A DNA stretch of 64,000 nucleotides, taken from assembly GCF_018873765.1 (NCBI RefSeq), contig NC_057923.1, positions 59,204,593-59,268,592 on the forward strand, given 5' to 3'. The notes under the pieces were generated by a model. The model did not search any database and was not told the origin of the DNA. It saw nothing but the letters and a program-made list of their open reading frames with translations. This document shows positions 13,001 to 16,000 of the stretch, in pieces; the stretch's first letter is position 1, and every line of letters starts with the position of its first letter. Position numbers and translations under genes: made by a program. Source of the DNA: Telopea speciosissima. Taxonomy: Eukaryota; Streptophyta; Magnoliopsida; Proteales; Proteaceae.

Positions 13001-16000
13001 ACCATGAATTTGCACTGTAATGATTTGTCTCCTCCCAATTCTAGGGACTTCTAGCATACTCTACTTTGTCCAAGACATTAATACTTCATTGGGACAATAT
13101 TCCATGGAGGATGTTTACCATTGCACCAATTTTACCGTTAACATTAGAATGATGAGTCACGTCTAGTTTGCAACTTGCGTGGTTACCTAGCCTACTTGGT
13201 TCAATCATCTTTAACACAACATAGGAAACATATCCAAATGATTTGTAAAAGTAGTGTAATGGGGCATGCCAATTTGCAACTTGCCTTGATTACCTGGCAC
13301 ACTTGGTTCAATCAACCTCAACATCATATAGAAAACATTTCCAAATAATTTGTAAAAGTAATGTATAACTGTGTCATATTCTTCCATTTGTTTCAATTTT
13401 TTTTTAGAAATGTTACAATTACTTCAATGGTTGTAAAAGCAAGCTATTCAAAGATACCTCATCTTACACTGTATGAGATGTAGACATAAATCTTCAGATG
13501 CAAGTTTATCCATAATAGAGAAGAAAACCCTCCATATACAAAGCTTATCAGCTCTGACAATGAGCTGATATGGTGATGGTTTAAAGTCCAGTTCTAGAGT
13601 AGGACTCGTTAGACCCTAATATCTTGCTGTCTCACTAAGAGAAGTATGACTTGGCTAATATGGTTACCTTATAAGGCTGGCTTACATATTTCCCTGTTGG
13701 TATTAGATCTGAAATGTCTAAAACCTCAAACAGGTGTGGGATCAGAAAGGTTGAGATGGCATAATAATTTTTGAATGAGAATATCTTATCTTCCTGAACG
13801 GAGTACTGCTTGAGAATGTTTCCTTACTAAAATGCAGCTCATCATAAGAGTTTCTTTAAAGCCTTACAACAACAAACTCCGCCTTATCCCAACTTAATGG
13901 GGTCGGCTACATGGATTCAAACAAAACCAGATGAGGAAAACTGAGTTCTAACCAAACAAAAAAAAAAGGAAAGAAAAGAAGGGAAAAGAGGGATGGGGAA
14001 AGAGAAGAGAAATGAAAAAAAGAAAATGCCAAATGAGAGATGGAAATAAAATAAGAAAAAGAAAGATGAAAGATTGTAAGAGGAAAGAGGCACAACCCTG
14101 CACCACAGGAGAATTTCAGCTATATGGGGTCTGTTACATGGATCCTTGCCCTCCAATAGGCTCTATCTGAGGTCATACTTGGCACAGGTCCTAGGCTCTG
14201 CAAATCCTTCCTCACCGCTTCTCCTATGATCATTTTAGGCCTTAATATTGTCCAAATTCAAAGCCTTAGTATTTTTCATAACACAGAGAAAATGTATCTT
14301 ACAAAAGCTGATTAGAACAAAACCACAAGGCAACAATCAAAATAGGTTGAAAGAAATGCCTACCGGTGCTGGAAAGCTCTGACCATGTCACAGCAACATC
14401 CTTACTTCAAAGCCTTAGTATTGTCCAAATTTTGAGGAAACCGGCAACAAGCAATTCCTTCTCATTTCATTTTCACAAACTCTTAATCATTATCAGAATA
14501 GGTTTTAAAGCTGATTGATTTATTTTTTTTGCAGGACTACATGAATTATAGGAAGTACAGGTATCTTCGACTTGATGGGTCTTCAACTATAATGGATCGA
14601 CGTGACATGGTCAGAGATTTCCAGCACCGGTAGGCATTTCTTTCAACCTATTTTGGTTGTTGCCTTGTGGTTTTGTTCCAATCTGCTTTTTTAAGATACA
14701 TTTTCTTTGTTATGAAAAATAATGCCATGGCCCATGAGAACTTTTATGAGATAGCATTAACTGGATCTATTATTCTCTTGTTTTGCAGGGGTGACATTTT
14801 TGTGTTTTTGCTGAGTACCCGAGCTGGTGGACTGGGTATTAACTTAACAGCTGCTGATACTGTTATATTTTATGAAAGTGATTGGAATCCAACCTTGGAT
14901 CTACAGGCAATGGACAGAGCTCATCGTCTTGGTCAGACCAAGGAGGTTAGTTAGCTGTCATTCATTCAGGCTAAAATACTGATGTTTACTGCTAGAACAT
15001 GACTCCGTTGACATTTGACCATTTCCAAAACTTTTGCCACATGTTTGTGTTGTGTTTTTGTGCTCCCATTCTTCAATGTGGCTTTTAAGTTGGAAAGCTG
15101 CATATTTTGCTATAGAAAGCAACACTAGGCCTCCAGCTTGCACTCTCCAAGATGCTTGTTTGTATACGAGATGTTTTAGTACTGATAATCAATCGAGTAT
15201 AAAACTATGTAGTTCTGGAATTAAACATTCTTTAATGGATAGAGAGTCTATGCTTCATCCTTTTGGCATTTTCTGATGGTATGCGTTAAATTTTGATAGT
15301 TATCTGAGTTTTTGCAATTTATGCTTTTTTTCTGTAATTTTTACTGGATTCTTTACTAAGTTTGAGTAAGGTAAGAGATAATTATCTTATACTCTCATGG
15401 GTTTGGTTAATACACACTTAATTAATTATTGTTCATCCTGACCTGGTTAGTTTTACTGGAATGACTCAATAATGCTATTAATAAAAAGAGCAAAAATGTA
15501 TCAGCACAAAACCAAGCAACCAATTTACACATATTTCCTTTGCTCCAAGAAAAAATGGCATGTGAGGAGTTAGATCTGGGAAAATTTTGGTACTTGTCTA
15601 GGCCCTTTATGAAGTGATACATCAGGTTTTCTAGTCCATATAGCTGGGTTTTTTCCCCCTTTTCTTTGTGGGTGGGGTGTGGGAGGTTGGGGATGGCAAT
15701 GAGTCGCCTTTAACTCTCTCCCCCCCCACCCCCCGGGTAGGGGCAGGGCCCATTTACCTTCTAAAATTTGTGGGGGCCACTCAGTTTCTGGGAGGAAATG
15801 CCTTTTTTGCAATCTGAAAGATTACTTTTGATGTGCAGGTCACTGTATACCGTTTGATTTGTAAAGAAACGGTTGAAGAGAAAATTTTGCAAAGAGCAAG
15901 TCAGAAAAATACTGTACAGCAGTTGGTTATGACAGGTGGCCATGTTCAAGGTGACCTCCTGGCTCCTGAGGATGTCGTTTCCTTACTTCTTGATGATGCT

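Follow-up and report, generated by a model that had tools for sequence, protein, structure and literature searches.

An inverted copy of an exon-intron border beside a truncated LINE-like fragment in an INO80 gene of Telopea speciosissima, and its predicted pairing over a splice donor

Introduction

That plant microRNA genes can arise when a target sequence is duplicated in inverted orientation was reportedly described by Allen et al. in 2004. In the excerpt of PMC3237417 that is relevant here, 93 of 290 microRNA genes of rice and 11 of 142 of Arabidopsis are classed as inverted duplications, and de novo microRNA genes have loops of 5-6 nt and precursors that average 172 nt in rice and 196 nt in Arabidopsis. 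MicroRNA stems that are split by introns or span them are presented in an excerpt of PMC11706861, and intron hairpins giving rise to siRNAs appear under the name 'sirtrons' in an excerpt of PMC5545994.

For rearranged 5' junctions of non-LTR retrotransposons, the mechanisms named in excerpts of PMC2912911 and PMC2837659 are twin priming, dual priming, template jumping and microhomology end joining; the former also describes interrupted L1 intermediates that are healed by microhomology end joining. The fillers made by Pol theta in Arabidopsis are copied from the flanks, either forward or as the reverse complement (excerpt of PMC10923293).

Here we describe an inverted repeat within an INO80 gene of Telopea speciosissima. 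It lies in a stretch of 64,000 nucleotides (contig NC_057923.1, positions 59,204,593 to 59,268,592 of the forward strand), referred to below as the window, the first letter of which is position 1. The locus shares with 5'-truncated non-LTR insertions a target-duplication-like repeat, a flush 3' end, the 5' truncation itself and shared letters at the 5' join. In contrast to the rearranged 5' junctions of such insertions, the extra sequence comes from the host gene, a few hundred nucleotides downstream, and is inverted; it is not an inverted piece of the element. A copied stretch of about 120 nt, as found here, is long for an end-joining filler and for the Pol theta class. The serial short flank copies, the presence of both orientations and the microhomology nevertheless resemble the templated insertions of Pol theta (TMEJ) and plant 'filler DNA' (excerpt of PMC10923293). 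Like inverted-duplication microRNA genes, the locus contains an inverted copy of an expressed gene in a near-perfect foldback; unlike them, it carries this copy inside the same gene, 210 nt from the source and across a splice site, with a loop and a length far outside the means given in the excerpt of PMC3237417. The likeness to sirtrons consists of a long pre-mRNA stem with an arm in an intron, whereas the stem described here spans exon and intron and would be undone by normal splicing. The structure may be regarded as a variant of known processes, namely of LINE junction filler, with a plausible effect on splicing.

Results

INO80 genes of the window and of contig C10

Coding pieces of INO80 were placed over about 1365-16806 of the window (+ strand) by tblastn, the query being an Arabidopsis INO80 protein sequence. 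The open reading frame is kept across all of the exon pieces aligned, and the helicase C-terminal domain was recognized by Pfam. The identification of the gene as INO80 and the presence of a 95-nt, frame-breaking exon (14535-14629, + strand), both put forward in the original prediction, are supported by tblastn and by reading the joined exons in frame. The number given to this exon, 18, is less secure than the exon itself: its donor is number 17 of the 20 that were placed, and the label is valid only if there is one extra upstream exon beyond those placed. The label exon 18 is kept below, with introns 17 and 18 on either side. The acceptor AG of intron 17 is at 14533-14534 and the donor of exon 18, CCG/GTAGGC, is at 14630-14635 (both + strand). 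When exon 18 is skipped, the frame reads NILE-G-stop, i.e., it ends after one codon; retention of intron 18 gives ...FQHR-stop, and retention of intron 17 leads to a stop within about a dozen codons. Another INO80 intron has a likely GC donor (GAG/GCAAGT) at 2891-2892.

The remainder of the window contains several pairs of glycosyltransferase-like ORFs, arranged in a tandem cluster on the + strand (21451-54526) that we take to be UGT87-like, and overlapping ORFs on the minus strand (56930-60934), presumably those of a copia-type retrotransposon.

A second INO80 gene is located on the minus strand of contig C10 (25131000-25168000), and its coding pieces cover almost the same range as those of the window gene. 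When the genome was queried with the exon, strong full matches were obtained for the two INO80 genes only, together with a match to the left arm described below and two weak short ones. The C10 gene has no stop codon among the codons aligned over nine exons, and in these exons the two genes differ at 69 of 322 fourfold sites. Two of its introns are much larger: intron 17 measures about 8.6 kb, and one further upstream about 10 kb.

The alignment of the C10 gene to the window extends up to 13865 and resumes from 14512, with about 92 nt of C10 sequence in between. These line up with window positions 14418-14511 once 13867-14417 are left out (join 13866/14418), which means that 551 nt of the window (13867-14417) have no counterpart in the C10 gene. 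The identity at the join itself is modest, in line with what old paralogous introns should show.

The inverted repeat

The left arm of the repeat (14270-14391, 122 nt, minus strand) is the reverse complement of the right arm (14602-14721, 120 nt, + strand), with five mismatches and two 1-nt gaps over 122 columns. This agrees with the inverted duplication with about seven differences that had been proposed at the outset. In a blastn analysis of the window, the arm pair aligned at 93.4% identity over 122 columns (E 2.5e-48), the highest identity with arms above 100 nt among 25 of the 49 inverted pairs listed for the window, and chance is excluded as its source. The alignment also confirmed that the right arm, from which the inverted copy was presumably made, consists of the last 28 nt of the exon and 92 nt of the following intron. 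The arms are separated by 210 nt that include the acceptor AG of intron 17, and the whole foldback (14270-14721) is 452 nt long.

The distance between the arms is 0.043, compared to 0.252 at fourfold sites between the two INO80 genes; given this ratio of 0.17, the insertion is clearly younger than the INO80 gene duplication. When the five substitutions between the arms (the two gaps being left aside) were polarized with C10 as the outgroup, four were assigned to the left arm and one to the right. No sign of selection on arm pairing was observed, the substitution counts being too small to test for or against it.

Two other regions of the window, 40662-41285 and 3291-4427, are long foldbacks and probably MITE-like elements. 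A 40-nt inverted pair (20215-20254 and 20796-20835, 95% identity, 541 nt apart) adjoins the glycosyltransferase cluster.

The LINE-like fragment and its putative target duplication

A 5'-truncated LINE-like fragment, recognized by its multi-copy genome matches, occupies 13867-14242 on the minus strand, with its 3' end at the left. The family is abundant, with 3530 first-look candidates in the genome, and a common 3' end is found at the 39 other places that were scored. All but one of these 39 copies stop matching at window position 14235-14243; the exception stops at 14162. Beyond 14242, the copies that were opened share further sequence (GCCCCTAGCTCTTTT and onward), clearly in 25 of 29 cases, partly in two (L016 and L027) and not in two (L012 and L018), as counted by eye. 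Since the sequence shared by the other copies gives way to something else at this locus, the element is truncated on its 5' side. On the other side, its 3' end carries CAACAACAA and adjoins 13866. On the minus strand, 14242-14126 encodes the end of an open frame, which we take to resemble the C-terminal part of an RTE-type LINE.

A target-duplication-like repeat, TTTCTTTAAAGCCTTA (13851-13866, + strand), is flush with the LINE 3' end and matches TTACTTCAAAGCCTTA (14402-14417, + strand; compared with the paralogue flank) at 14 of 16 positions. In a chance test made after this pair had been noticed, 2770 16-mers drawn at random from the gene region were compared with 13900-14534, and one of them matched at 14 or more positions. 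The inserted unit thus comprises 13867-14401 plus the target duplication, and the C10 gene, a paralogue rather than an orthologue and of modest identity at the join, represents the locus without the LINE insert. A tRNA-derived SINE was rejected, as a bacterial-type tRNA scan, in itself weak evidence, revealed no tRNA in 9000-15000. Another INO80 intron contains two further 3' ends of the LINE-like family (9214-9318 and 9480-9526), in the opposite orientation.

The probable filler between the LINE end and the right duplication

From the LINE end to the right duplication, the window contains, in this order, two copies of the right flank, the inverted gene copy and ten further nucleotides. Flank copy 1 (14239-14258, + strand) matches 14412-14431 at 19 of 20 positions, and flank copy 2 (14257-14273, + strand) is identical to 14406-14422 over all 17. 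Neighbouring pieces have letters in common at three joins: GCCT(T) between the LINE end and flank copy 1, TT between the two flank copies, and TATT (14270-14273) between flank copy 2 and the left arm. Each of these is weak alone, as 2-5 nt can arise by chance. No source was found for the ten nucleotides at 14392-14401 (+ strand): no exact piece of at least 10 nt from 14392-14405 recurs on either strand of the window, and a genome query with 14380-14470 matched only itself.

A 15-bp direct repeat had been taken in the original prediction to flank the left arm and to point to templated break repair. The repeat exists and is exact over 17 nt (14257-14273 and 14406-14422), but the inserted DNA is not bounded by it. 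The LINE edge and the insert-free paralogue place it inside the filler, and a plain 17-bp target duplication around a 132-bp insert was rejected on this basis. The general idea of templated repair is upheld by the serial copies of the flank beside the left arm, which bring to three the stretches copied from nearby sequence with microhomology at the joins. We infer that the left arm is junction filler produced in sealing the LINE insertion, and that the 17-nt direct repeat is part of that filler. Such a serial copy pattern would match both the Pol theta fillers (excerpt of PMC10923293) and the healing of interrupted LINE insertions by microhomology joining (excerpt of PMC2912911).

Predicted RNA structure at the exon 18 donor

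In folding analyses, which give equilibrium predictions without proteins, the RNA of 14260-14730 had an energy of -218 kcal/mol, whereas 100 shuffled versions averaged -98.8 (sd 5.9), which gives z -20. The predicted fold of the transcript adds support to the geometry originally envisaged, i.e., a stem of about 120 bp that buries the donor and encloses the acceptor.

The 20 INO80 donors placed were compared in contexts of 531 nt. The predicted unpaired value over positions -3 to +6 was 0.000 for the exon 18 donor and 0.087-0.619 for the 19 others, and the MFE of its context was -229, compared to -109 to -167. When GT alone was considered, five of the 19 other donors (5887, 6101, 12695, 12883 and 16440) had values of 0.001-0.011; as these nearly fully paired donors presumably splice, GT pairing alone is no bar to splicing. 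In these models, it is the continuous stem that distinguishes the exon 18 donor from the other paired GTs.

The donor was predicted to be more open in all contexts without the intact left arm, with unpaired values of 0.237-0.341 when the insert was left out, 0.342-0.399 in the C10 gene, which has the same nine donor letters, and 0.180-0.580 when the left arm was shuffled 30 times. It was paired at all eight growing-transcript ends folded, from 14636 to 14788. The acceptor of intron 17 (-20 to +3) was about as open with the arm (mean unpaired 0.294) as without it (0.319). Removal of intron 17, in the one context folded, freed the donor only in part (mean unpaired 0.093; GT 0.303), and exon 18 with intron 18 alone gave 0.246 for the donor and 0.957 for GT.

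Discussion

A LINE insertion sealed with copied filler, which supplied the inverted arm and brought with it an effect on the order of splicing, is probably the best explanation overall for the structure of this locus. A LINE-like element would have inserted antisense into intron 17 of INO80, and its cDNA would have stopped early, which would account for the 5' truncation. The free cDNA end would then have been joined to the target by microhomology-primed copying of three stretches in turn: 20 nt and then 17 nt, both from the right flank, and about 118-122 nt of the gene, read from 14721 towards 14602, followed by the ten nucleotides and the right target duplication. The long third copying step would have left an antisense exon 18/intron 18 border beside the original.

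The same arrangement might have arisen in two steps, that is, by insertion of the LINE with a plain target duplication and by a later break at its right edge, repaired with copied filler that included the inverted gene piece. An older LINE with a later edge break is possible because the target duplications differ more (2 of 16 sites) than the arms (5 of 120), and flank copies 2 and 1 match at 17 of 17 and 19 of 20 positions, respectively. However, the filler lies between the LINE end at 14242 and the right duplication at 14402, an edge that a later break would have had to hit by chance. We favour the single event and consider the two-step origin rather unlikely.

For the sealing of the LINE insertion, the copied template could have been flank DNA or a nascent transcript, as the letters fit both. 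In the insert, the top strand is the complement of the INO80 transcript, as would be required if a reverse transcriptase had been at work on that strand; flank DNA with its 3' end folded back would also be compatible. An RNA template would have been unspliced, since the copied stretch crosses the exon/intron border. That the LINE reverse transcriptase, while extending the antisense top-strand cDNA, switched in place to the nascent, unspliced INO80 transcript is a proposal that we make tentatively and regard as unlikely.

Once the right arm has been made, the two arms could pair in the unspliced transcript, hiding the donor and leaving the acceptor of intron 17 in the loop. Intron 17 could then be spliced first, which would remove the left arm and free the donor, with intron 18 following; molecules failing in this would retain intron 18 or skip exon 18 and meet an immediate stop codon either way. 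The donor and acceptor pairing predictions, together with the partial release of the donor after removal of intron 17, suggest that intron 17 tends to go first. The order intron 17 then intron 18, with some loss, is most likely the consequence of the stem, as judged from these models.

Alternatively, the main effect of the stem might be skipping of exon 18, which would lower the amount of full-length INO80 from this locus, the loss being covered by the C10 copy. The buried donor, the stop after one codon in the skip product and the second INO80 gene, free of stop codons in the codons aligned over nine exons, are all consistent with this proposal. It is nonetheless doubtful, as the loop holds the exon 18 acceptor, which is predicted to be about equally accessible with and without the arm, so that skipping is possible but no obvious outcome, and as the window gene has kept its reading frame over all exon pieces aligned. 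Literature searches on exon skipping, alternative splicing or inverted repeats in INO80 and on splice-donor hairpins yielded no such INO80 hairpin among the matches listed.

Still less probable is that the locus acts as a proto-microRNA or an intron-derived hairpin siRNA locus, in which Dicer-like enzymes would cut the stem and the products would act on INO80 RNA or DNA. A near-perfect stem of about 120 bp is a good Dicer substrate. By the criterion applied to plant microRNAs, however, a foldback measures 300 nt or less, and the present one reaches 452 nt. Both inverted-duplication microRNA genes and microRNA stems split by or spanning introns are known (excerpts of PMC3237417 and PMC11706861), but the foldback, with its 210-nt loop, is far above the means of the former source. 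Of the left-arm registers lying wholly opposite the exon, there are eight of 21 nt, seven of 22 nt and five of 24 nt, every one with one mismatch, and the stem would exist only until intron 17 or 18 is removed. A search of 12800-15000 against Rfam gave no match at E up to 1, although a new family would not match. On these grounds a microRNA seems to fit the locus poorly, and siRNA output from the stem is possible.

An ordinary foldback DNA transposon (MITE) or an assembly artefact is extremely improbable: further foldbacks occur in the window (e.g., 40662-41285 and 3291-4427), but a left-arm query of the genome (822,943,500 bases, in a search that skips common words) matched only the left arm, the right arm and the paralogous exon/intron on C10, so that the repetition of both arms typical of a MITE is absent and this origin was rejected; one arm is coding; and the seven sites differing between the arms, the element-like boundaries of the inserted segment and the counterpart without it on another contig make an artefact unlikely.

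If sealing of the LINE insertion with copied filler did create the left arm, the locus would link the filler at a LINE 5' end to the origin of self-complementary arms within genes, two subjects that are generally treated separately. It would offer a case that is dated and clearly delimited, and the C10 copy, identical in donor sequence and free of the arm, would serve as a natural control for asking whether a stem that covers a donor determines the order of removal of the adjacent introns. Should the template switch to the nascent transcript be true as well, a LINE inserting into an active gene could place an antisense version of that gene's RNA next to it, and retrotransposition in cis would lead directly to hairpins that lie within genes and cover splice sites.
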